Shown: piece by piece, positions 6,936 through 47,949 of the stretch
Layout of the letters: every line of letters starts with the position of its first letter
Position numbering within the stretch: position 1 is the stretch's first letter
DNA from: Gemmatirosa kalamazoonensis
Lineage (GTDB): Bacteria > Gemmatimonadota > Gemmatimonadetes > Gemmatimonadales > Gemmatimonadaceae
Direction: 5' to 3'
Length of the DNA stretch: 64,000 nt
Assembly: GCF_000522985.1 (NCBI RefSeq)
Contig: NZ_CP007128.1
Span: forward strand, 682,001 to 746,000
Made by a program: the position numbers and the translations under genes
Notes under the pieces: model-generated
The model's input: the letters and a program-made list of their open reading frames with translations, nothing else
The model's database searches: none
What the model was told of the DNA's origin: nothing

Positions 6936-6983
6936 GGCTTGGCCACCGGTAGACTTCCACGCCATCCACCGAACATCGCAGAC

Positions 6984-7508
6984 ATGAGCAGTGTCGGCTC
7001 GATCGAGACGCCCGACCGGGAGATCACGTTCTTCGCACACCAGACGGGGCCCCAGGGCGAGCCTTGGGTGACCGCCGTGGTCGTCCGGCAGGGGCCGACG
7101 GACCGCTCCGCGGCGCCGGCTCCAGAGGGACCGGCGCGATCGGCCGCCCCGCCGCGCGTCCCGGGGCCGCGGTCCTTGCCCGCCGGGTGGGAGGAGGCGA
7201 GCGATGCTGGCGGTCCACGGGAGGTGCTCCACAGTAGGCAGCGCCGACGCGTACGGGTCGCCGGCCGGGAGTTCCCGTTCGCCGCGGAGGGGCGCACGGT
7301 GGTCGTCCTGGTCCGCGATGCGCCCGAGGGCGGCCCGGAGGTGGTGGCCGTGCATGAGGTGGTGGTCGGGCCCGGTCCGGAGGCGTCTGCCACCGGCGCG
7401 CCCGAGCTGGTGGGGGTCCCCAGTCCGGCGGAGCCGTCCGACGCGGCGCTGCACCGGCGGGTACTTCGGGCCCTGGAGCGTCACGCGGAAATCGCGGCCT
7501 TCCTCTGA
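6984..7508 (+). CDS. Cassette 4: protein of unknown function
   Basis: I do not recognise this 174-residue protein. ATG 6984 begins SSVGSIETPDREITFFAHQT; the part of the frame upstream of it runs back to the attC3 end. A central Pro/Ala-rich stretch separates two beta-rich halves, and the second (REFPFAAEGRTVVVLVRDAP, then VVAVHEVVVGPG) looks like alternating strands. The C-terminus is helical (DAALHRRVLRALERHAEI). No signal peptide or membrane helix is visible, so it is probably cytoplasmic. It occupies one cassette alone, on the array strand. Confidence 0.6.
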   Translation: MSSVGSIETPDREITFFAHQTGPQGEPWVTAVVVRQGPTDRSAAPAPEGPARSAAPPRVPGPRSLPAGWEEASDAGGPREVLHSRQRRRVRVAGREFPFAAEGRTVVVLVRDAPEGGPEVVAVHEVVVGPGPEASATGAPELVGVPSPAEPSDAALHRRVLRALERHAEIAAFL

Positions 7509-7533
7509 CGCCGCACGGCGCCGCAAGAGCGCC

Positions 7534-7630
7534 GCCTAACGAGTCGTTGCAGCTGACAAAGGCGCGCAACTCTCCGCACCGGCAGCCGAGATCACGCTCG
7601 CGCCTTCGCAGCTCAACTCTAGCGTTAGGC
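7534..7630 (+). repeat. attC4 integron recombination site
   Basis: R'' GCCTAAC (7534-7540) and R' GTTAGGC (7624-7630) flank GTTGCAGCTGAC and GCAGCTCAAC, with an AAGGCGCG/CGCGCCTT central stem. It is 97 bp long and colinear with the rest. Confidence 0.88.
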
Positions 7631-7656
7631 CGCGACGTCCACTATCTGACGGGCAC

Positions 7657-8178
7657 GTGACCGATTCAGACTACCTCGCTGCGGTGGAGCACGAACTCAC
7701 GCGCGTCGGGCTCTCGCTCGCCGAGCTTCCGGGTCTCGCGATGGCGTCTGACGCCCGCGAGCCCTTCCTCGCGCGATTGCGAACCCTACCGCCGGGCGCC
7801 GGCTGGCGGGACGTGTTCCCCGACTTGCCGCCGGACTGGCGCGAGTGGGATGCGCTGCCGCGCTACCGGCCCCTCGGCGCCTACGACTACGCCGAGCCGC
7901 CCGCCGGGCCTGCGGTGCACATCCAGTGGCCGGACCGCGACGGGGACGCGGGGCGGCTCGACACGCTCGTGGCGGCGGCGCGGGCGGTCGGGTGGCCGGT
8001 ATATGGGGCGGGGCTGATCCCGATCACGAACGCGGCGTGGCCCACGATGGACGCCCTCGTCGTCCTCACGCGAGGGACGGAGGAGGATACCTTGGGGAAG
8101 TTCGTCGAGTGGCTGGAGGCGTGGTCCGACGCGTCGCTGGCGGCGATCCCGCGCCGCGGGACCGAACAATACCGGTAG
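7657..8178 (+). CDS. Cassette 5: protein of unknown function
   Basis: This 173-residue product starts at GTG 7657, 32 bp past the attC4 crossover, and begins TDSDYLAAVEHELTRVGLSL. It is acidic, rich in Trp and Pro (GWRDVFPDLPPDWREWDALP), has no signal peptide or membrane helix, and ends 24 bp before attC5. The C-terminal half (IPITNAAWPTMDALVVLTRG, then a helix FVEWLEAWSDASL) looks like a compact alpha/beta fold. I cannot name a family. It is the only gene of its cassette and reads with the array. Confidence 0.6.
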   Translation: MTDSDYLAAVEHELTRVGLSLAELPGLAMASDAREPFLARLRTLPPGAGWRDVFPDLPPDWREWDALPRYRPLGAYDYAEPPAGPAVHIQWPDRDGDAGRLDTLVAAARAVGWPVYGAGLIPITNAAWPTMDALVVLTRGTEEDTLGKFVEWLEAWSDASLAAIPRRGTEQYR

Positions 8179-12436: not shown

Positions 12437-13813
12437 CTAACGGCGCGCTCTCTTCGCACGCTGCCAGGTCGAGAACTCGGTGGCCAGCCGGAACGCCTCG
12501 CGCGTGCTGAGATCCTGGTAGAACGTGTCGGGCGCGGCCCCTCGCTGCTTCACGATGAGGAGCCCGCCCGCCGAGTGGCCGCGCTTGAGCGGCTGGAGGT
12601 TTACGTCGCTCGCCTCGATCGAGCGGCGGATGCTGCCTCCGGGCCTCACGCGGATGATCGACGAGTCGGTGAGCAGCAGCGCGTCGGCGAACGTGTGGTT
12701 GGCCTGGATGAAGACGAGGTCCACGCGCTCGTTCGCGCCCACGCTCCCGGCCGCGCGCGCCAGGCGCACGATCGAATCCGGCACCGCGCCGCCCGACTCG
12801 AGCAGCGCGGGATCGGCGCCGCCGCCCCGGCCCGCGAAGAACGCCATCGCCTGCACCGCGATGCGCACGGCGACGACGAGCACCGCGCCCGCGCTCACCG
12901 CGGCGATCGTCAGGTAGATGCCGCGTCGCCGCCAGCGCCGGCGTCGCACCTGCGACGGTGTCAGTAGCCCGTCCGGCGTGCTCGCCGCGGCGAGCTCGTT
13001 CACGAGCTCCGCGGCCGTCGGCCGATCGGCCGGGTCCTTGGCGAGCATGCGGTCCACCAGCCGGACGAGCGCCGCCGGCGTCTCGGGCTCGCGGTCCGAC
13101 AGCCTGGGGATGGGCGCCGAGATGTGCTTCGCGATGACCTCCGTCGCGTTGCGCCCCGGGTACGGCGGTGTGCCCGTGAGCATCTCGTAGAGCACGACGC
13201 CCAGCGCGTAGACGTCCGCGCGTCCGTCGACGCGCTCGCCGAGCGACTGCTCGGGGCTCATGTAGTGCGGCGTGCCGGTGGTCGATCCGGGGAGCTCGTG
13301 CGCCGGCCGCGACGTGACGAGCGCGATCCCGAAGTCGGAGACGCTCGCGTTGCCGGCCGTATCGAGCAGGATGTTCGCGGGCTTGATGTCGCGGTGCACG
13401 ACGCCGACGGCGTGCGCGGCGGCCAGCGCGCCCGCGCACTCTCGCGCGATCCGCGCCGCCTCCGCCGGCGGGAGCTTGCCCTCGGCGATCCGGTCCGCGA
13501 GCGAGCGGCCGGGCACGAGCCGCATGACGAGGTACAGCAGTCCGCCGTGCGATTCCGCGGAGTACAGCGGCACGATGTGCGGATGCTCGGCCGCGGCGAT
13601 CGTCCGGGCTTCGTGGAGGAACTGCTCCTCGAGCGCGGCGTCGACGGCGAGCGACGGGTCGAGGACCTTGATCGCCACGTCGCGCTCGAGGAAGGGATCG
13701 TGCGCGCGGAACACCGCGGCGAACCCTCCCTGCCCCAGCAGATCGCCGAGCTGGAGCTGCTCCCCGAGCGCCGCCTCGAGCTTCGGCCGCAACGTGGCGA
13801 TGTCGATGCTCAT
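12437..13813 (-). CDS. Membrane-bound Ser/Thr protein kinase
   Basis: The 458-residue protein carries a full Hanks kinase domain: Gly loop GQGGFAAVF (27-35), AIKVLD with the catalytic Lys near 49, HRDIKPANI near 136, DFGIA near 158 and the HYMSPEQ activation-loop end. One transmembrane helix (GIYLTIAAVSAGAVLVVAV, about 295-315) follows, then a roughly 140-residue beta-rich extracytoplasmic tail of unknown type. Start MSIDIATLRPKLEAAL (13813) is chosen over an upstream Met, since the latter adds a poorly structured basic stretch. It is divergent from the sigma factor gene at 13969, and the shared 155-bp gap probably holds both promoters. The TAG stop is part of a CGTTAGGC word. Confidence 0.9.
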   Translation of the reverse strand: MSIDIATLRPKLEAALGEQLQLGDLLGQGGFAAVFRAHDPFLERDVAIKVLDPSLAVDAALEEQFLHEARTIAAAEHPHIVPLYSAESHGGLLYLVMRLVPGRSLADRIAEGKLPPAEAARIARECAGALAAAHAVGVVHRDIKPANILLDTAGNASVSDFGIALVTSRPAHELPGSTTGTPHYMSPEQSLGERVDGRADVYALGVVLYEMLTGTPPYPGRNATEVIAKHISAPIPRLSDREPETPAALVRLVDRMLAKDPADRPTAAELVNELAAASTPDGLLTPSQVRRRRWRRRGIYLTIAAVSAGAVLVVAVRIAVQAMAFFAGRGGGADPALLESGGAVPDSIVRLARAAGSVGANERVDLVFIQANHTFADALLLTDSSIIRVRPGGSIRRSIEASDVNLQPLKRGHSAGGLLIVKQRGAAPDTFYQDLSTREAFRLATEFSTWQRAKRARR

Positions 13814-13968: not shown

Positions 13969-14943
13969 ATGCGTATCACGAGGCTCGCCGATGCGACCGG
14001 AGCTGGTCGCGCGGGCACCGAGATCCCAGAACCAGGGCCGCGCATGGGGATACGCCTCGTGAACGAGCAGCATACCGGATCGGCCGGGTCGGAAAGGACG
14101 GTGCATCGCGCCGTCGCCGCGCGGGAGACCCTCGTCGAGCAGTACATCCGGGACATCGCCGCGTACCCACTGATCTCGCGCGACGAGGAGATCGCGCTCG
14201 GTCGTCGCGTGAAGGAGGGGGATCGGGACGCGCTCGACCGGCTCGTCCTCGCCAACCTGCGCTTCGTGATCGTCGTCGCGAAGAAGTACCAGCACTACGG
14301 GGTGGCGCTGGCGGACCTGATCAACGAGGGGAATCTCGGGTTGATCCGCGCGGCGCACCGGTTCGACCCGACGCGCGGCATCAGGTTCGTGTCCTACGCC
14401 ATCTGGTGGATCCGCCAGGCCATCTTCCAGGCGCTGGCGGAGCAGGGCCAGCTCGCGCGCGTGCCCATGAGCCAGGCCCTCGAGTTCCACCGCGTCGCGA
14501 AGCGCGCCCGGTCGCTGCGGCGGGAGCTGGGTCGCGAGCCCTCGGCGGCCGAGCTCGCCGAGCATCTGGGGATGCGAGAGACGGACGTGGCGGCCGCCCT
14601 GGCCGTCGCCCGGACTCCCCTGTCGCTCGATACGCCGCACGGGCCCGACGACACCCGACTCGCGGACCACCTGGCCGACGTCGCCATGCCAGCCCCCGAC
14701 GAGCTTCCGCTCGAGCGGGCGCTCGCCGACCTCGTGCGGGAGAGCCTGTCGTCGCTGAAGGAGCGCGAGGCGCTCGTCCTGAACCTGTACTTCGGTCTCG
14801 ACGGCACCGAGCCGATGAACCTCGAGCGGATCGGCGCCAGGCTCGGCGTCTCCCGCGAGCGGGTGCGTCAGCTCAAGGAGAAGGCGCTCGCCCGGCTCCG
14901 CGCCGGTCGGCTCGGCAAGGCGCTGGCGGAGTTCTACGGCTGA
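13969..14943 (+). CDS. RNA polymerase sigma-70 factor, group 2 (RpoD/RpoS-like)
   Basis: The 324-residue protein has region 1.2 (VEQYIRDIAAYPLISRDEE), region 2 with LRFVIVVAKKYQHYGVAL, DLINEGNLGLIRAAHRFD and YAIWWIRQAI, region 3, and region 4 ending in the helix-turn-helix IGARLGVSRERVRQLKEKAL. It lacks region 1.1 and the large non-conserved insert, so it is an alternative group 2 factor rather than the housekeeping one. The first 40 residues are not conserved, and the start could instead be ATG 14044. It lies between a divergent kinase and Ku. Target promoters are unknown; a stress or stationary-phase role is the usual one for the group. Confidence 0.9.
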   Translation: MRITRLADATGAGRAGTEIPEPGPRMGIRLVNEQHTGSAGSERTVHRAVAARETLVEQYIRDIAAYPLISRDEEIALGRRVKEGDRDALDRLVLANLRFVIVVAKKYQHYGVALADLINEGNLGLIRAAHRFDPTRGIRFVSYAIWWIRQAIFQALAEQGQLARVPMSQALEFHRVAKRARSLRRELGREPSAAELAEHLGMRETDVAAALAVARTPLSLDTPHGPDDTRLADHLADVAMPAPDELPLERALADLVRESLSSLKEREALVLNLYFGLDGTEPMNLERIGARLGVSRERVRQLKEKALARLRAGRLGKALAEFYG

Positions 14944-15001
14944 GGGCGCGCGTCCGGCGCTCGCGCCCGGAGCGGGCATCTTGCTTGCTTTCACAGTCGG
15001 C

Positions 15002-15844
15002 ATGGCCACCATCTGGAAGGGCGCGCTCACCTTCGGACTCGTGAACATCCCGGTCGAGCTGCGCCCCGCGGTGCGCGCCGACCACGTCAGCTTCCGGCTG
15101 CTCCACGCGGCCGATCTCACACCCGTGAAGTTCGAGCGCGTCTCGCGGAAGACGGGCAAGCCGGTGCCGTGGCGCGAGATCGTGAAGGGCTACGAGTACG
15201 CGAAGGGCAAGTACGTCGTGCTCACCGACGAGGACTTCAAGGCGATCGCGCTCGAGTCGTCGAAGACCATCGACATCCTCGACTTCGTGCAGGCCACCGA
15301 GATCGACCCGCGCTACTTCGAGACGCCGTACTATCTCGTGCCCGGCAAAGGGGGCGAGAAGGCGTACGCGCTGCTGCGCGAGGCGGTCCGCAAGGCGGGC
15401 GCCGTCGGCATCGGCAAGATCGTGATGCGGCAGACGCAGCACCTCGCCGGCGTGAAGGTGGTCGGCGACGCGCTCGTGCTGGAGATCATGCGCTTCGCGA
15501 CCGAGCTGGTGGACGCCGACGAGTACACGTTCCCCGCGGCGAATCTGGTGCGCCCGCAGGAGCTCGCGATGGCCGAGCAGCTCGTGGCGAACCTCGCCGA
15601 GCCGTTCGACCCGGGGAAGTACACCGACGAGTACCGGGCCAGCCTGATGAAGGTCATCAAGGCGAAGATGGCCGGTAAGAAGATCGTCGCGCCGGCCGAG
15701 GACGAGCGGGCCGGCGATGCCGACGTGCTCGACCTGATGTCGCGGCTGCAGGCGAGCCTGGCGAAGAAGCCGGCGAAGGGCAGAGCGGCCGCGGCGAAGA
15801 AGGGCGCCGCGCCGGCGCGCCCGCGCCGCCGCAAGTCGGCCTAA
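15002..15844 (+). CDS. ku: Ku-type DNA end-binding protein (NHEJ)
   Basis: The 280-residue protein begins ATIWKGALTFGLVNIPVEL, the N-terminal strand of bacterial Ku, and contains SFRLLHAADLTPVKFERVS, KGYEYAKGKYVVLTDEDF, and the PYYLVPGKGGEKAYALLREA core segment. A Lys/Ala/Arg-rich tail (about 255-280) resembles the basic C-terminal extensions that modulate DNA threading in bacterial Ku. It forms a homodimer on double-strand ends and recruits LigD; no ligD is in this window. ATG 15002 is set by homology. Its TAA stop overlaps the TAG stop of the convergent gene within a GCCTAACG word. Confidence 0.94.
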   Translation: MATIWKGALTFGLVNIPVELRPAVRADHVSFRLLHAADLTPVKFERVSRKTGKPVPWREIVKGYEYAKGKYVVLTDEDFKAIALESSKTIDILDFVQATEIDPRYFETPYYLVPGKGGEKAYALLREAVRKAGAVGIGKIVMRQTQHLAGVKVVGDALVLEIMRFATELVDADEYTFPAANLVRPQELAMAEQLVANLAEPFDPGKYTDEYRASLMKVIKAKMAGKKIVAPAEDERAGDADVLDLMSRLQASLAKKPAKGRAAAAKKGAAPARPRRRKSA

Positions 15845-25319: not shown

Positions 25320-27815
25320 GTGCGCGACCTCGTCGACATCGCGCTCGACCTCGACGCCGACGCGCGCACCGCGTTCCTGCGCGACGCGTGCGCCGACGAC
25401 CCCGAGGCGCTGCGCGAGGTGCAGGCGCTGCTCGCGTCGTTCGAGGGCGCGAGCACGGACCGCGTCTCGGCGCGGCTGACGCGCGTCGATGCCGGCGCGG
25501 TGGCGATCGGCGATCGCATCGGGCCGTACGTGCTCCGCCGCGAGATCGGCTCCGGCGGTATGGGCGTGGTCTACGAGGCGACGCGCGAGGACGTGGCGAA
25601 GACCGTCGCGCTGAAGCTCGTGCGATACGGCTGGCTCGCGTCGCCCGACCACCTGCGGCGCTTCCGTCTCGAGCAGCGCGTGCTGGCGCGGTTGGAGCAC
25701 CCCAACATCGCGCGGCTGCTCGACGTCGGCGTGACCGATGCGGGGCTGCCGTACCTCGCGATGGAGTACGTGGCGGGCGAGCCGATCGATCGGTACTGCG
25801 ACGCGCGCGGCCTGACGATCGAGCAGCGCCTCGCGCTGTTCGTTCAGGTGTGCGACGCGGTGCAGTATGCGCACCGCCACCTCGTCGTGCACCGCGACCT
25901 CAAGCCGTCGAACATCCTCGTCACGGCGACCGATGCGGTGAAGCTGCTCGACTTCGGCATCGCCACGCTGCTCGAGGAGGGCAGCGACGCGGACGGACGG
26001 ATCACGGGCACGGGACTCGTCGTGCTCACGCCGGAGTACGCGAGCCCCGAGCAGGTGCGCGGCGATCCGGTGACGATGGCGAGCGACGTGTACGCGCTCG
26101 GCCTGCTGCTGTACGAGCTGCTCACCGGCAGCCGCCCGTTCCGACGGCCGTCGCGCTCCACACCGGAGCTGCTGCTCGCCGTGCGCGACGAGGAGCCGGC
26201 GCTGCCGTCGCGGGTGGCGAAGCCGGCGCGGCTCGCGCGTCGGCTCGCGGGCGACCTCGACACGATCGTGCTGCAGGCGCTGCGCAAGGAGCCGGAGCGG
26301 CGCTATCAGTCGGTGCAGGCGCTGCGCGAGGACGTCGATCGGTACCTCTCGGGTCGGCCGGTGCGCGCGCGTGGCGACTCGCTCGGCTACCGCTCGCGGA
26401 AGTTCGTGCGCCGACACACCGCGGCCGTCGCGGCGGTGGTGCTCGTGGTGCTCGCGCTGGCCGGCGGCGTGGTGACCACCACGGTGCAGGCGCGGCGCGC
26501 GGACGCCGAGCGGGCCGTGGCCGAGGAGCGCTTCCGCGACATGCGCGCGCTCGCCGGCGCGCTCGTGTCGGACGTGTACGACGCGATTCACGACCTGCCC
26601 GGCACGCTGCCGGTGCGCGCCACGCTCGCCGGCCGCGCGCTGGAGCATCTGCAGCGGCTCGAGCGCGAGACGAGCGACGACCCGGTGCTGCGGCGCGAGA
26701 TCGCCGAGGCGTACCTGAAGCTCGGCCACGTGCAGGGCAGTCCGACCGGCGCGAACCTCGGCGACCTCGGTGCGGCGCGCGAGAGCTTCCGTCGCGCGCT
26801 CGCGCTCGCGCGGTCGCTCGTCGCGGCCGACTCCACCGACGCGGCATCGCGCCGCACGCTCGCGCTGGCGCACGAGGCGATGAGCGACGCCGACGCGTGG
26901 CGTGGCGATCTGCCGCAGGGCGTGTCGCACGCGCGCGCGGCGGTGGACCAGTGGCGCGTGCTCGCCGCGGCGGACACGTCGCGCGTGCGTGCACGCTACG
27001 CCGTCGCGATGAGCCGCGTGAAGCTCGGCGACTTCCTCGGCAACCCGAACCTGCCCAACGTCGGCGATCGCGCGGGCGCCACGGCGCAGTATCGCGAAGG
27101 GCTCGCGCTCATGCACGCCGCACCGCCGGACAGCCTCGCCGAGTGGAGCACGCGGCGGCTGCTCGCGCTGCTGCACGAGCGGCTCGGCGCGATGCTCGCC
27201 GCGGACGGTCGCCACGCGGCGGCGATCGCGGAGCTGGAGCAGGCGCTCGCCATCCGCGACGGCCTCGTGAAGGAGCGCGCGGCCAGCGTGGACGCGCGTC
27301 GCGATCTCGCGGTCGTGCACCAGCTGCTGTGCGAGGCGCAGCTCGCGGGCGGCGACGACACCGGCGCGCTCGCGCGGTGCGAGCGCGGGCTGGCCCTGTA
27401 CGAGTCGCTCCGCGCGGCCGACCCGCGCAACGCGCAGAGCGCGCGCGACCTCGCGTTGGGCCTGCAGTCGATGCACAAGGTGCTCGCCGCGCGCGGCGCG
27501 CTCGCCGAGGCGCTCGCGCAGCTCGACCGGAGCGCGGAGCTGTCGCGCGCGCTGCTGCGATCGCAGCGCGACAACGTGCCCGCGCGCCGCGATCTCGCGC
27601 ACGCGCTGCTGTTCGCGAGCCGCGTGCACGCGACGCTCGCCGCACGGTCGACCGACGCTGCCGGCGCGAGCGCGCACCGCGCGCGCGCCGCCGTGTCGTA
27701 CGCCGAGGCCGAGGGCGTGCTCGGCGAGCTGCGCGCGCGCGGGCCGCTGTCGCGCGAGGACTCGACGCTCCTCGCGGAGACGCGTGTGAAGCTCGCCGCC
27801 GCGCATCGTCGCTGA
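25320..27815 (+). CDS. Ser/Thr protein kinase with TPR-rich C-terminus
   Basis: The product of about 831 residues has an N-terminal leader (RDLVDIALDLDADARTAFLR) common to this kinase class, and a full kinase domain (about 64-340): GSGGMGVVYEA, VALKLVRYG, HRDLKPSNILV, DFGIATLLEE, EYASPEQVRG. One transmembrane helix follows (AAVVLVVLALAGGVV, about 370-390), then about 430 residues of TPR-like repeats, probably outside the membrane. GTG 25320 is chosen; TTG 25299 would add seven residues. No sigma gene is adjacent, unlike the 38-43 kb kinases. The signal and targets are unknown. Confidence 0.88.
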   Translation: MRDLVDIALDLDADARTAFLRDACADDPEALREVQALLASFEGASTDRVSARLTRVDAGAVAIGDRIGPYVLRREIGSGGMGVVYEATREDVAKTVALKLVRYGWLASPDHLRRFRLEQRVLARLEHPNIARLLDVGVTDAGLPYLAMEYVAGEPIDRYCDARGLTIEQRLALFVQVCDAVQYAHRHLVVHRDLKPSNILVTATDAVKLLDFGIATLLEEGSDADGRITGTGLVVLTPEYASPEQVRGDPVTMASDVYALGLLLYELLTGSRPFRRPSRSTPELLLAVRDEEPALPSRVAKPARLARRLAGDLDTIVLQALRKEPERRYQSVQALREDVDRYLSGRPVRARGDSLGYRSRKFVRRHTAAVAAVVLVVLALAGGVVTTTVQARRADAERAVAEERFRDMRALAGALVSDVYDAIHDLPGTLPVRATLAGRALEHLQRLERETSDDPVLRREIAEAYLKLGHVQGSPTGANLGDLGAARESFRRALALARSLVAADSTDAASRRTLALAHEAMSDADAWRGDLPQGVSHARAAVDQWRVLAAADTSRVRARYAVAMSRVKLGDFLGNPNLPNVGDRAGATAQYREGLALMHAAPPDSLAEWSTRRLLALLHERLGAMLAADGRHAAAIAELEQALAIRDGLVKERAASVDARRDLAVVHQLLCEAQLAGGDDTGALARCERGLALYESLRAADPRNAQSARDLALGLQSMHKVLAARGALAEALAQLDRSAELSRALLRSQRDNVPARRDLAHALLFASRVHATLAARSTDAAGASAHRARAAVSYAEAEGVLGELRARGPLSREDSTLLAETRVKLAAAHRR

Positions 27816-30980: not shown

Positions 30981-32165
30981 ATGTCGACTCGCCAGACCGC
31001 CGCGACCCCCGCTCCCCGCTTCGAGCCGTACCGCCCGCCCGAGCACGCGCCGATGGTCCACAGCTTCGAGAGCGGGCGCAGCTACCGGCTCGAGCGGCTC
31101 ATCGGCAAGGGCGGTTTCGGCGAGGTGTACCTCGCCACCGCGGAGCCGCGCGGCGCGATGCCGGAGCGCGTGTGCGTGAAGGTGAGCGACCGCTTCTCGG
31201 CGTGGCTGCGCGAGGCGTACTTCGCGGAGCTGCTCGGCCGGGAGCCGCGCGCACTGAAGGTGTTCGACCGCTTCGCGCACGTCGACGGCACGCAGATGCG
31301 CTACTGCCTCGCCATGGAGTACGCGGAGCACGGGGACCTCGGCGCGTGGCTCGCGCGGAAGGGCGCGCAGTCGGAGCGGCTGGTGCGGCGCGAGATCGCG
31401 GGGATCCTGCGCGCGCTCGACGCGCTGCACCGCGGCAACGGGCTGCACCGCGACCTCACGGCGTTCAACATCTTCGTCTGCAAGGACGAGCAGCTGAAGC
31501 TCGGCGACTTCGGCATCGCGACGCACCAGCTCAGCCGCCGCGGCGTGACGGCCGACGCGTTCAACCCGTTCGACGCGCCCGCGGAGATCGCGTGGGGCAA
31601 GGTGCGGCGGTGGCAGCAGCGCGACGACGTCTATCAGATCGGCATGATCGCGGCGATGCTGCTGCGGGGCGACACGACGAGCCCGATGCGCAGCAAGGAC
31701 GTGCGCAACCTGCCGTGCAGCGATCACCTCAAGGAGGTCATCTACCGCTGCCTCGGCGTGCGCGGCAAGCGCTACGAGTCGGCGGGGGAGCTCATCGCGG
31801 CGCTGCGGCAGCGACCCGCGGAGTCGCCGAAGCTCGGACGCGTGACGACGCTCGCGGGCTGCCGGGTCGCGTTCACCGGCTTTCTCAGCCGGCCGCGCAG
31901 CGAGGCGATGCAAGCCGCGCGTGAGGCCGGCGCGACGGTGCAGTCGAAGCCGGGGCACACGACCGACGTGCTCGTGCGCGGCCGGCCGAACGTGCAGCAG
32001 ATCGCCGGCGCGGCCGGCGGATCGAAGCTGCTCGAGGTGCGCCGACTCGCCGCGCAGGGGCAGCCCGTGCGGGTGATCGGCGAGGCGCAGTTCTGGCGCC
32101 TCGTCGCGCCGACGCCGCGCAAGGCCGCGCCGAGCAGGGGCGCGCCCGCCCGTGCCCGCCGTTAG
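30981..32165 (+). CDS. Ser/Thr protein kinase fused to a BRCT domain
   Basis: The 394-residue protein has a kinase domain at about residues 35-275: GKGGFGEVYLA, VCVKVSDRF for the catalytic Lys, HRDLTAFNIFV, GDFGIATHQL, and a C-lobe with QIGMIAAMLLRGDTTSPM. The HRDL motif has Thr where most kinases have Lys. A BRCT domain follows at about 290-373 (LAGCRVAFTGFLSRPRSEAM, then AREAGATVQSKPGHTTDVLV), as in NAD-dependent ligase. No membrane helix is present, so it is cytoplasmic. BRCT domains bind phosphopeptides or DNA ends in other proteins, suggesting recruitment to DNA-damage or replication sites. That use is inference; the architecture itself is clear. Confidence 0.86.
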   Translation: MSTRQTAATPAPRFEPYRPPEHAPMVHSFESGRSYRLERLIGKGGFGEVYLATAEPRGAMPERVCVKVSDRFSAWLREAYFAELLGREPRALKVFDRFAHVDGTQMRYCLAMEYAEHGDLGAWLARKGAQSERLVRREIAGILRALDALHRGNGLHRDLTAFNIFVCKDEQLKLGDFGIATHQLSRRGVTADAFNPFDAPAEIAWGKVRRWQQRDDVYQIGMIAAMLLRGDTTSPMRSKDVRNLPCSDHLKEVIYRCLGVRGKRYESAGELIAALRQRPAESPKLGRVTTLAGCRVAFTGFLSRPRSEAMQAAREAGATVQSKPGHTTDVLVRGRPNVQQIAGAAGGSKLLEVRRLAAQGQPVRVIGEAQFWRLVAPTPRKAAPSRGAPARARR

Positions 32166-37947: not shown

Positions 37948-40454
<2,507 letters not shown>

Positions 40455-40458
<4 letters not shown>

Positions 40459-43166
40459 GGCCACAGGTCGCGGAGGTCCACGTCCCCCGCGCGGCGCCGG
40501 TAGACCGCCGCCGAGTCGGGCTTGCCCCACGCCGCGTACAGCGTCGCCATGCCGGCGTACGTGCGGCGCACGGCCCGGTGCGAGTCGGCGGTCACGGCGT
40601 GCAGCGACGTGAGCGCGTCCCGGTAGAGCGTGTCCGCCTCCGCGAAGCGCCGCTGCCGCGCGAGCACGCCCGCGAGCCCCGCCTTGATCTCCCGCGTGAT
40701 CCCCGCCTCCGGTCCGAACGTCGACGCCCAGATGGTGATCATGCGCCGGTACAGCGCGGCCGCGGAGTCGAGCGCACCGCGCTGCGCGAGGCTCTCCGCG
40801 ATGTGCTCCAGCGCCGCCGAGTACGCGGGGTGATCCGTCCCGAGCGAGCCGCCGATCCGCGTCGCCGCGTCGGTGAAGACGCGCTCCGCTTCGGCCGAGT
40901 AGCCGCCGTCGCGGAGCACCTCGCCGAGCGACATCATCGTCCGTGCGACCTCGAGGTGCGACGGGCCTAACGTGCGCTCCTGGACGGCGAGCGCTCGGCG
41001 GATCAGGCGCTCCGCGTCCGTCTTCCGGCCGTGACGCGCGAGCATCAGGCCCACCTGCTTCATGACCTGTGCGGTCTCGGCATGGTCGTCGCCCAGCGCG
41101 GCGCGCGTGTCCGCCAGCGCGGCGACGTAGAGCGACTCCGCCTCGGCGCTTCCGCCCGGCCGGTCGTCGAGCGCGTCGGCGAGCCGCAGCATCGCCCGCG
41201 CGCGCTCGCGGTGCGGAGCGGGGAACGCGCGCCGCGCCACGGCGACGGCCTCGCGCAGCTCGCGCTCGCACTCCGCGTTCCGGCCGCGCGCGCACAGGAA
41301 CGTGCCGAGCGTCGCGAGATCGCGCGCCAGCATCGAATCCTGGCCGACGCCGCGCCGGCGCACCGCGATCCCCTGTCGCATGTACGCTTCGGCCGACGCG
41401 AGGTCCTCGCGCATGTACGCGACGTCGGCGACCTGGGCCAGGCTCGCCGCGACGTCGGGGTGGGCGTCGCCTAACGCGAGCCGCCGCACGCGGAGCGCGT
41501 CGCGCGCGAGCGAGTCCCACGCCGAGTACTGTCCGCGCCGACGGAGCACGTCGGCGAGCGCGGCCTCGGTCGTCGCCGTGGTCGGGTTGCCGGCGCCGAG
41601 CTCCGCGCGCCGGACGACGAGCGCGCGCTGCAGCAGGTCGCCGGCGGTGGCGAAGTCGCCCCGGCTCGCGTACACGCGGCCGAGCGACTCGAGCATGCGC
41701 GCCTGCGCGAGCGGCTGCGACGCGAGTCGGTCCACGCGCGCGACGCCGCGGCGCAGCAGGTTCGCGGGCGTCAGCGTGTCGGGGCGGCCCTCGGTGGGAT
41801 CGCTCGCCTCGAACAGACCGACGAGCAGCGACGTCACGGCCTCCGACTCGTCGAGCGTGCGCTCCGTCTGCGCGAGCGCGCCCGCGGCGCGGTCCCGCTC
41901 GCGCGCGGCCATCGACGCGAGCCGGAGCGCCACGGCGGCGCTGGCCACGAGCAGCAGCACGCTCGCCGCGGCGGCGACGGCCGCGGCGCGGTGCCGCCGC
42001 AGCAGCTTCTCGAATCGGTAGAATCCGCTGCCGCGGTGCGCGAGCACCGGCAGCCCCTCCAGGTACCGCGCCACGTCCGACGCGAGCAGCTCGGCCGAGC
42101 CGTAGCGGCGGCCGGGCTCCTTGCGCAGCGCCATCGCCACGATCGCGTCCAGGTCTCCACGCAGCCGACGCCGCAGCCGCTCCGACGTCGTGCCGCGCGA
42201 CGCGGCGATCGCCTCGTCGTCCACCACCCGCGCGCTCGGGCGCTCCACCTCGCGCTCGCACACCACCTCGTACACCGCGCGCGGCGCGTCCGTGGTGAGC
42301 TGATGCGCCGGGCTGCCGGCGAGCAGCTCGTAGAGCAGGAGGCCTAACGCGTAGACGTCGCTCGTCGTCGTCAGCGAGTCGCCGCGCACCTGCTCCGGGC
42401 TCGCATACGCCGGCGTCATCAGCCGGAACGCCGTCCGCGTCACCGGCGCCGCGACGTCCGTCAGCGTCGGATTCAGCAGCTTGGCGATCCCGAAGTCCAG
42501 CAGCTTCACCTCGCCGCTGCGCGTGACGAGCACGTTCCCCGGCTTCAGGTCGCGGTGCAGCACCAGGTTCTGATGCGCGTGCTGCACCGCCGCGCACACG
42601 TCGCGGAACAAGCGCAGCCGCGTCGCGACGTCCAGCCGGTGCCGGTCGCAGTACTCCGTGATCGGCACCCCGTCGACGTACTCGATGACCAGGTACGGCA
42701 GCGCGCCGTCGGCGACGCCGCCGTCGAGCAGCGTGGCGATGTTCGGGTGCGAGAGCGACGCGAGGATCTGGCGCTCGGCCAGGAAGCGGCGGTGCAGCTC
42801 CTCGGCGTCGGCGCTCGCGCGCAGGAGCTTCACGGCGACGCGGCGGCGGAACTGGCCGTCGGCGCGCTCGGCGAGATAGACGACGCCCATGCCGCCGCGC
42901 CCCAGCTCGCGCAGCACGCGATAGGGGCCGATGTGCCGGCCGCGGCGGTCGTCGTCGAGCACGGCCACCACGCGGCCGGCCGCGGGGACGTCGAGCACGC
43001 TCTCCGAGCGCTGGTGCGCGGCGAGCAGCAGCGACACCTCACGCTCGAGCGCCTCGTCGCCGCCGCACCGCGCGTGCAGCCACGCCGCGCGCTCCTCCGG
43101 CGCGACGTCGAGCGCATCGTCGAACAGCGCCTCGATCGCCGCGCGCGACGGCGCGAGCCCGCTCAC
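40455..43166 (-). CDS. TPR-tailed Ser/Thr kinase, second gene of an ECF operon
   Basis: The 903-residue protein opens with SGLAPSRAAIEALFDDALDV, a helical leader typical of ECF43-linked kinases. The kinase domain follows (about 79-355; RELGRGGMGVVYLAERADGQ, HRDLKPGNVLV, LDFGIAKLLNP), then a transmembrane helix (about 392-415) and roughly 480 residues of TPRs. GTG 43166 overlaps the ECF sigma gene stop by GTGA. The central kinase coding block (42315-43040) is nearly identical to the third kinase gene at 45196-47949 (7 differences in 726 bp), while flanking parts differ, which suggests recent gene conversion. Confidence 0.93.
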
Positions 43167-45195: not shown

Positions 45196-47949
45196 TCACG
45201 GTGGCGCGAACCCCGGCGGCTGCGCCAGCCGCCGGTAGCGCGCCGCCGAGTCGGGTTTGCCCCACGCCTGGTACAGCGTCGCCATCCCCGCGTACGTGCG
45301 GCGCACGTCGACGTTGCCGTCGGAGGTGTAACTCCGCAGCACGCCGAGCGACCACCGGTACAGCGAGTCGGCCTCCGCGAACCGGCGGCGCTTCGTGAGC
45401 ACGCCGGCGAGCCCACCGTTCGTGAGCGCCACGATGCCGTGCCTGGCGTTCCCCCGCTTCGTGCGGATGGCGAGCGCGCGGCGATACAGCGCCTCGGCCG
45501 AATCGAGCGCGCCGCGGCGCGCGAGCACGTCGCCGAGGTAGCCGAGCGCGCCGGCGTACGCGGAGTGGCCGGTGCCTAACGACGCCGCGTACATCGCGGC
45601 CGCCTGGCGCGTGAGCCGCTCGCCCTCCGCCGAGTAGCCGTCGCGGCCGAGCACCCGCGCGAGGTCGGTCATCGTCGTCGCCACGTCGACGTGCGTCGAC
45701 CCCAGTGTGCGCTGCTGGAGCGCGACCGCCTCGCGGAGCAGGCGCACCCCTTCCGCCGTGCGGCCGTGGCGCGCGAGCATCTCGCCGACCTGCCCCAGCG
45801 CCGTGGCCGTCTCCGGGTGCGAGTCGCCGAACGCCGCGCGACTCTCGGCCAGCGCCGCGAGGTAGAGCGACTCCGCCTCGGCGCGCGTCGCCAGTCGCTG
45901 GTCGAGCAGATCCGCGAGTCGCAGCGTGACCTCGACGTGGTCGCGATGCGGGCCGGGAAACGCACGCCCGGCCGCCGCGCGCGCCTCGCGCAGCGCCGCC
46001 TCCGCGGCGTCCGACCGGCCGCGCCGCCCGAGCACCGCGCCGAGCTCGCGCAGGTCCATCGCGAGCGCGGAGTCGGCACGGTGCCCGCCGCGACGGTCGA
46101 CCGCGACCGCCTGGCGGTGATACGCCTCCGCCGCGGGAAGATCGGCGAAGTACACCGCGAGCGCGCCGAGCTGCCGCAGACTCGCCGCGACGTCGGGGTG
46201 CGCGTCGCCTAACGCGAGCCGCCGCACGCGGAGCGCCTCGCGGGCGAGCGTGTCGGCCGCCGCATACTCGCCGCGCTGCCGCAGCACGAGCGCGAGCGCC
46301 GCCTCGCCCGCCGCCGTCTGCGCGTGCTCGGGACCGAGATGCGTCAGGCGCAGCGCGAGCGCACGCCGCAGCAGCCGCTCGGCGAGCGGCAGGTCGCCGA
46401 GGCTCGCCTGCACCCGGCCGAGCGTCTCGAGCATGCGTGCCTCGGCGACGGGCTGGTCGCCGAGCCGGTCGGCGCGCGCGACGCCGCGACGCAGCAGGTT
46501 CGCGGCGGTCAGCGTGTCGAGCCGCCCCTCGGTGGGATCGCTCGCCTCGAACAATCCCACGAGGAAGCTCGACACCGCGTCGGACTCGCGCCGCGCGCGC
46601 TCCGACTCCGTGAGCGCGGACCGCGCGCGGTCGCGCTCGCGCGCGGCGAGCGAGGCGAGGCGCAGCGCGAGCGCGGCGCCGCCCACGAGCAGCAGCGCGC
46701 TGGCCGCCGCGAACGCCGCGGCCGCGCGGTGCCGGCGCAGCAGCTTGCCGAGGCGGTACCATCGGCCGGCGCGGCGCGCGACCACGGGGTTGCCGTCGAG
46801 CACGCGGGCGACGTCGGCGGCGAGGAGCTCCGCGGATCCGTAGCGGCGGCCGGGCTCCTTGCGCAGCGCCATCGCCACGATCGCGTCGAGGTCTCCGCGC
46901 AGGAGCCGCCGCAGCCGCTCGGGCGTGGTGTCGCGCGCTGCCGCGGCGACCGGATCGTGCGCGACGCGTACGCTCGGCCGCTCCGGCTCGCGCTCGCAGA
47001 CCGCGTCGTAGACGGCCTGCGGCGCGTCCGAGTCCACGCGGTGCGCCTGCGCGCCGGCGAGCAGCTCGTAGAGCAGGAGGCCTAACGCATAGACGTCGCT
47101 CGTCGTCGTCAGCGAGTCGCCGCGCACCTGCTCCGGGCTCGCGTACGCCGGCGTCATCAGCCGGAACGCCGTCCGCGTCACCGGCGCCGCGACGTCCGTC
47201 AGCGTCGGATTCAGCAGCTTCGCGATCCCGAAGTCCAGCAGCTTCACCTCGCCGCTGCGCGTGACGAGCACGTTCCCCGGCTTCAGGTCGCGGTGCAGCA
47301 CCAGGTTCTGATGCGCGTGCTGCACCGCCGCGCACACGTCGCGGAACAAGCGCAGCCGCGTCGCGACGTCCAGCCGGTGCCGGTCGCAGTACTCCGTGAT
47401 CGGCACCCCGTCGACGTACTCGATGACCAGGTACGGCAGCGCGCCGTCGGCGACGCCGCCGTCGAGCAGCGTGGCGATGTTCGGGTGCGAGAGCGACGCG
47501 AGGATCTGGCGCTCGGCCAGGAAGCGGCGGTGCAGCTCCTCGGCGTCGGCGCTCGCACGCAGGAGCTTCACGGCGACGCGGCGGCGGAACTGGCCGTCGG
47601 CGCGCTCGGCGAGATAGACGACGCCCATGCCGCCGCGGCCCAGCTCGCGCAGCACGCGATAGGGGCCGATGTGCCGGCCGCGGCGGTCGTCGTCGAGCAC
47701 GGCCACCACCCGGCTGGCCGCGGGGACGTCGAGCACGCTCTCCGAGCGCTGGTGCGCGGCGAGCAGCAGCGACACCTCGCGGCGCAGCGCGTCGTCGGCG
47801 TCGCAGCGCGCGCGCAGCCATGCCGCGCGGCGGTGCGTGGGCACGTCGAGCGCGTCCTCGAACACGGACTCGATCGCGGCGCGGTCGAGCGCCGTGCGGT
47901 GGCCGTGCGTCGTGCGCGGCGTCTCGGACGACGGCCCGGTCGGCGGCAT
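45196..47949 (-). CDS. TPR-tailed Ser/Thr kinase (third copy, outside the ECF operon)
   Basis: The 917-residue protein has a leader (DRAAIESVFEDALDVPTHRR), a kinase domain from about residue 90 (RELGRGGMGVVYLAERADGQ, HRDLKPGNVLV, AYASPEQVRGDSLTTTSDVY), a transmembrane segment near residue 405-430 and a long TPR tail. ATG 47949 has a GGGGAGAG Shine-Dalgarno. The coding block 47053-47778 matches 42315-43040 in the neighbouring kinase gene with seven mismatches. The TPR tails differ, so input specificity is probably distinct while the catalytic domain is homogenised. Confidence 0.92.
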   Translation of the reverse strand: MPPTGPSSETPRTTHGHRTALDRAAIESVFEDALDVPTHRRAAWLRARCDADDALRREVSLLLAAHQRSESVLDVPAASRVVAVLDDDRRGRHIGPYRVLRELGRGGMGVVYLAERADGQFRRRVAVKLLRASADAEELHRRFLAERQILASLSHPNIATLLDGGVADGALPYLVIEYVDGVPITEYCDRHRLDVATRLRLFRDVCAAVQHAHQNLVLHRDLKPGNVLVTRSGEVKLLDFGIAKLLNPTLTDVAAPVTRTAFRLMTPAYASPEQVRGDSLTTTSDVYALGLLLYELLAGAQAHRVDSDAPQAVYDAVCEREPERPSVRVAHDPVAAAARDTTPERLRRLLRGDLDAIVAMALRKEPGRRYGSAELLAADVARVLDGNPVVARRAGRWYRLGKLLRRHRAAAAFAAASALLLVGGAALALRLASLAARERDRARSALTESERARRESDAVSSFLVGLFEASDPTEGRLDTLTAANLLRRGVARADRLGDQPVAEARMLETLGRVQASLGDLPLAERLLRRALALRLTHLGPEHAQTAAGEAALALVLRQRGEYAAADTLAREALRVRRLALGDAHPDVAASLRQLGALAVYFADLPAAEAYHRQAVAVDRRGGHRADSALAMDLRELGAVLGRRGRSDAAEAALREARAAAGRAFPGPHRDHVEVTLRLADLLDQRLATRAEAESLYLAALAESRAAFGDSHPETATALGQVGEMLARHGRTAEGVRLLREAVALQQRTLGSTHVDVATTMTDLARVLGRDGYSAEGERLTRQAAAMYAASLGTGHSAYAGALGYLGDVLARRGALDSAEALYRRALAIRTKRGNARHGIVALTNGGLAGVLTKRRRFAEADSLYRWSLGVLRSYTSDGNVDVRRTYAGMATLYQAWGKPDSAARYRRLAQPPGFAPP

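Follow-up and report, generated by a model that had tools for sequence, protein, structure and literature searches.

What might a soluble bacterial kinase gain from carrying a BRCT domain of the kind found in DNA ligase? The question is raised by a gene of Gemmatirosa kalamazoonensis that lies in a 64,000-nucleotide stretch of its genome (contig NZ_CP007128.1, positions 682,001 to 746,000; hereafter the window) and encodes, on the forward strand from 30981 to 32165, a kinase-BRCT fusion protein of 394 amino acids. Most known bacterial Ser/Thr kinases carry sensors that are extracellular or lie in the membrane, and a kinase with an inbuilt reader of DNA lesions, if that is what this protein is, would provide a direct and testable example of DNA-damage signalling through phosphorylation in bacteria. 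An earlier, sequence-only reading of the gene had described the fusion and placed its possible action at DNA ends or replication sites. Our analysis indicated that the fusion is genuine and conserved as one unit, and we proposed that its BRCT domain would dock a soluble kinase onto 5'-phosphate DNA, where local concentration would activate it in the manner of YabT; built on sequence, structural models and analogy, this proposal has in our judgement about an even chance of being right.

The gene is a single open reading frame (ORF) that starts with ATG and ends in a TAG stop codon at 32163–32165. The Hanks-type kinase domain occupies about residues 35–280 (31083–31820), with a Pfam Pkinase match over residues 35–239 (82.2 bits against a cut-off of 31.7), and it is followed by the BRCT domain at residues 287–376 (31839–32108) and by a short basic C-terminal tail (residues 377–394; 32109–32162) with a net charge of +6. 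The Pfam BRCT match, at residues 289–336, scored 25.4 bits when the C-terminal piece was scanned by itself and 22.2 bits within the whole protein; against a cut-off of 21.3 the margin is narrow, and the match spans only about positions 4–52 of the 78-position model. The profile scan gave this one BRCT match in the protein, and no second repeat of the BRCA1-type tandem arrangement was found. No transmembrane stretch was evident either (highest Kyte-Doolittle mean over 19 residues, 0.97), in agreement with the cytoplasmic kinase of the sequence-only reading. That reading had also named a frameshift artefact joining two genes as a way in which the fusion could be false. This was ruled out by comparison with the relatives: of 33 non-redundant sequences, left after removal of 17 duplicates and of two fragments at contig ends (L080 and L081), 31 carry both domains in one frame. 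In the remaining two (L049 and L050), the frame is lost within the BRCT domain, for which sequencing error and decay are both possible. In all 12 pairs tested, the ratio pN/pS stayed below 1 and did not exceed 0.5 in either domain; estimates of dN/dS in these pairs lay between 0.05 and 0.15 in the kinase domain and between 0.02 and 0.41 in the BRCT domain, with the highest value between the window protein and L002.

The kinase domain carries the expected landmarks, namely the P-loop GKGGFGEV (42–49), K67, E78, the catalytic loop HRDLTAFN (156–163; 31446–31469), D176-F177-G178 and APAE (199–202). The glycine loop, K67, E78, H156-R157-D158, N163, D176 and G178 are invariant in all 33 relatives, as is T190 of the activation loop, and F177 is present in 32. 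The lysine two positions after the catalytic Asp, part of the HRDxK motif of Ser/Thr kinases, is replaced by T160 in every one of the 33; the nonstandard HRDLT motif pointed out in the sequence-only reading is therefore fixed across the family. The Ser/Thr kinase set of the 7.48-Mb genome itself (G000) is strongly expanded, with 81 Pkinase matches at an E value of 1e-10, a few of which may be parts of one gene. When the first motif in any frame was scored, 74 of these were scorable, and 70 read HRD.K, with the fusion protein the sole HRD.T; among 12 other kinases of the relatives, 11 had Lys and one had His at this position. Kinases without the HRDxK lysine exist, so its loss makes Ser/Thr activity less certain, not membership of the Hanks family. 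Judged by these residues, HRDLT is unusual yet fixed, and the enzyme looks catalytically competent. Within the window, six Pkinase matches were observed, at 12998–13750, 25527–26330, 31083–31697, 39781–40413, 42084–42923 and 47020–47661.

At an E value of 1, two BRCT matches were found in the genome, the fusion protein and C2:3166580, whose product we read as LigA from its alignment and its 687-aa frame. In a profile comparison, the fusion BRCT matched this LigA BRCT over 67 columns with 39% identity (P 1.7e-5, probability 78.6). The best NCBIfam match of the BRCT piece was PRK06195, DNA polymerase III subunit epsilon (36.9 bits against a whole-protein cut-off of 373), followed by LigA, all below their own whole-protein cut-offs, and the sole significant match by sequence to a solved structure was the DNA ligase BRCT 1l7b. 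Because a fold ranking of the whole protein returned kinases only, with no BRCT entry in the best 50 rows, the BRCT domain was modelled separately with AlphaFold. A Foldseek search with this model gave a LigA model first (E 8e-6), followed by a solved RFC1 BRCT (E 3e-4), with several of the RFC1 entries bound to DNA. VIA-align superposed the domain on the LigA model with Z 9.6 (74 residues, 1.9 Å, 27% identity) and on RFC1 with Z 9.5 (76 residues, 2.8 Å, 33% identity). In sequence and in model, the fusion BRCT thus appears closest to LigA and eukaryotic RFC1, and the ligase-type assignment of the sequence-only reading held.

The residues that would contact a phosphate point in the same direction. 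Thr166, Gly167, Arg174 and Lys209 of yeast Rfc1 make up the binding site of the DNA 5'-phosphate (PMC9359705). Their counterparts in the fusion protein are T299, G300, R306 and K349, the correspondence of R306 with Arg174 requiring a one-residue gap, and the LigA of the same genome aligns the same four; the phosphate pocket that the sequence-only reading had singled out for checking is seen in the alignment. T299, G300 and R306 are present in all 33 relatives, and K349 in all of the 31 that reach this position. In 31 of 31 sequences the BRCT domain has a net charge between +8 and +15, as against −1 for a 71-aa BRCT piece of LigA from the same genome, and in all 31 the tail is positively charged as well. 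In the LigA of D. radiodurans, the BRCT domain helps double-stranded DNA binding (PMC10504179). A pocket of this kind bears directly on two alternatives. The BRCT domain could be a phosphate-independent protein dock to a complex such as LigA, Ku-LigD or RNA polymerase; BRCT-BRCT pairing is known in XRCC1-DNA ligase III (PMC10386641), and the top fold match, that to LigA, comes from an integrative model of LigA in complex with RNA polymerase, but an invariant phosphate pocket would be superfluous for such docking, and we regard this alternative as quite unlikely. Alternatively, the domain could read a phosphoprotein, either a phosphosite on a partner or an autophosphorylated segment of the kinase itself, and could serve substrate docking or self-regulation without DNA contact. 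This is the rival that we take most seriously, while rating it somewhat unlikely. The invariant T190 would suit it, and a phosphopeptide-bound Rad4 BRCT superposed with Z 8.6 (76 residues, 2.7 Å, 21% identity); the nearest matches in sequence and structure are LigA and RFC1, however, and the fourth pocket residue, R306, together with the strong positive charge suits DNA.

For the DNA-docked kinase, we proposed the following course of events. The C-terminal single BRCT would dock the kinase at 5'-phosphate DNA, that is, at nicks, gaps or ends; crowding on the DNA would promote autophosphorylation in trans; and the activated kinase might then phosphorylate proteins of repair or replication that occupy the same stretch of DNA. 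Activation by DNA is proposed by analogy with YabT, a Hanks kinase that is switched on when its C-terminal region binds DNA and that phosphorylates RecA (PMC3708118; PMC6333020). Action at DNA ends, one of the suggestions of the sequence-only reading, we infer from the likeness to LigA and RFC1 and from the 5'-phosphate pocket.

Several observations weigh against this proposal. The fold separates DNA-binding from phosphopeptide-binding BRCT domains weakly, since Rad4 scored just 1.0 lower than the best match, and related BRCT pockets bind phosphopeptides. The AlphaFold models are of middling confidence, with mean predicted local distance difference test (pLDDT) values of 69.8 and, for the BRCT domain alone, 78.0, and with values below 50 in the activation loop (residues 179–207). 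In a protein without the HRDxK lysine, kinase activity is a prediction from the sequence. No neighbour common to the whole family was seen in the 40 largest neighbour clusters, where single-linkage joining of GC-rich frames could mask an operon partner, or among the genes listed for each locus (L045, L046 and L050 have no called kinase); the clusters common to several loci consisted of the kinase itself, of overlapping mechanical frames or of neighbours in close relatives. Finally, four SOS-box patterns (CGAACN4GTTCG, GAACN4GTTC, CTGTN8ACAG and GTTCN7GTTC) were found in none of 33 upstream stretches of at most 350 bases before codon 28 (only 84 in L049), a weak negative, since these stretches include some coding bases and the patterns are known ones that may differ from the LexA box of this phylum.

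The distribution of the gene is narrow and patchy. The fusion was found in 8 of 59 genomes of relatives, the window's own included, where the other seven proteins are 66–76% identical to the window protein (64–76% in the family overall). Searches that scored five or six candidates per genome recovered it in 27 of 395 genomes of the phylum, all 27 within the order of the window's own genome; of the genomes in that order, 35 of 288 carry it (18 of 159 among good genomes). When genome contigs were scanned with two family-specific patterns, 27 loci were obtained, of which 26 bear the name Gemmatimonadota or an older name of that phylum and one, L037, the label Chloroflexi. The kinase gene of L037 (2778–3919) is 90.6% identical in DNA to that of the Gemmatimonadota locus L054 (7934–9075), and its genome (G455) was the sole match among 400 genomes of its labelled phylum; L037 is therefore likeliest a misbinned contig. 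Horizontal transfer may be an alternative, as the DNA identity between the two loci is confined to the kinase gene and ends at the gene edges. In the gene tree, sequences clustered by taxonomic family, with 3 changes as against 8.1 in shuffles (8 of the 33 sequences had no family code), and two of these changes were forced by well-supported branches; this suggests that the gene was for the most part inherited vertically and lost in places, and that it was exchanged to some extent. Candidates for a mobile origin were rejected: 89 pattern matches in viral contigs included no confirmed relative, and the 130 plasmid and 9 phage records that matched did so by kinase similarity, none over more than 80% of the query. 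Likewise, no BRCT domain was found in four ordinary kinase matches aligned past residue 300 (the plasmid matches H1 and H6, together with G002 and G034), of which H1, lacking a listed ORF of 280 aa, was scanned on the matched stretch only; other such kinase matches were partly checked. The statement of the sequence-only reading that such proteins are rarely seen in bacteria agrees with the sampled sets; phyla other than its own were barely sampled, and rarity across bacteria lies beyond these counts. No bacterial kinase-BRCT fusion was reported in the titles or abstract openings of the open-licence literature, among the matches listed. Both domains are of known kinds, and it is their fusion that is new, as far as searched.

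The patchy occurrence would also suit a stand-alone antiphage kinase that senses phage DNA ends through its BRCT domain. Two PADLOC models, mad6 and PD-T4-6, for which no cut-off is given, hit the kinase domain with 95 and 89 bits, and the PD-T4-6 model PDLC04041 spans residues 34–366. It is the one to do so among the best 25 rows, in which the remaining PADLOC matches end at residue 283 or before, and such models may score any Hanks kinase. The gene tree, which suits mostly vertical descent with losses, and the viral contigs, with no confirmed relative, speak against the antiphage role as well, and we consider it improbable.

A gene for Ku, a possible functional associate, lies about 15 kb upstream of the fusion gene on the same strand (14981–15844). 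With three Ku matches spread over 7.48 Mb, one would lie within 16 kb by chance with a probability of about 1.3%, a value calculated post hoc. This Ku gene stands directly 3' of a sigma-70-type gene (regions 1.2, 2, 3 and 4) with a gap of 37 bases as called, the pair covering 13969–15844 of the window. Ku was present in 33 of 35 carriers of the fusion (26 of 27 plus 7 of 8) and in 169 of 288 genomes of the order overall, leaving 136 of 253 noncarriers (Fisher p 1.5e-6), and among good genomes in 17 of 18 carriers as against 77 of 141 (p 7e-4). At the level of genera, however, the counts, which were derived by subtraction and with genus g2, whose carrier has no Ku, counted as Ku-free, were 12 of 13 and 50 of 66, and the difference was not significant (p 0.28). 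Whether Ku is present seems to be largely a property of the genus, and the association at the genome level is probably inflated by shared ancestry. A firm link to nonhomologous end joining was dropped on the genus-level test, and end joining is only a lead for this kinase. A more specific version, in which the protein would be a single-polypeptide bacterial DNA-break kinase that senses 5'-phosphate ends and phosphorylates proteins of the Ku/LigD pathway, filling the role of DNA-PK by an unrelated route, seems to us unlikely. The fusion protein offers a way to ask whether phosphorylation regulates bacterial end joining.

Repair genes were observed near the fusion gene in one well-supported clade (L031, L032, L034 and L049), of which L049 is one of the two sequences with a lost frame. 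A LigD primase-polymerase gene lies 0.5 kb away in L031 and 2.7 kb away in L032, and L049 has part of such a gene where its contig ends, at a distance of about 7 kb; an ATP-dependent ligase gene lies 1.1 kb upstream of the match in L034 and 147 bases downstream in L049; and a 5'-3' exonuclease gene lies about 4.5 kb (L031) and 4.9 kb (L032) away. None of these three was found in the remaining loci probed (L021–L054 and the window), on contigs that were often short (316,817 bases over 27 named loci). Limited to one clade, these neighbours perhaps reflect one event. Two further neighbours were recorded. In the single locus L041, a gene for a PP2C phosphatase (6970–7845), a possible cognate phosphatase, ends 50 bases upstream of the kinase. 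Genes for Uma2 putative endonucleases adjoin the kinase in two distant members, L028 (4440–5090) and L037 (2193–2744), whose genomes may simply be rich in Uma2 genes.

How, then, does the fusion protein compare with known systems? The MADS6 and PD-T4-6 kinases resemble it in the kinase domain, although it scored 56.5 with the NCBIfam MAD6 model against a cut-off of 460. Mammalian DNA-PK, which is Ku-dependent, belongs to a different kinase family, and the likeness would be a functional one, if the fusion kinase signals from DNA ends beside Ku. RFC1 shares with it, in its N-terminal BRCT, the common fold and the 5'-phosphate pocket residues, but RFC1 is a eukaryotic clamp loader without a kinase. 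LigA and the PolIII-epsilon-like proteins likewise end in a single C-terminal BRCT, and TG, R and K align between the fusion protein and the LigA of the same genome; in contrast to that LigA, the fusion BRCT is longer by about nine residues ahead of the GGxK segment and by about five behind it, is far more basic and is joined to a kinase. YabT of Bacillus subtilis is membrane-anchored, whereas the fusion protein has no strongly hydrophobic segment, and the DNA-binding element of YabT is not a BRCT but a basic juxtamembrane stretch, disordered when DNA is absent (PMC6333020). The two proteins nevertheless share a plan, a Hanks-type kinase followed by a C-terminal part that binds nucleic acid in YabT and is predicted to do so in the fusion protein.
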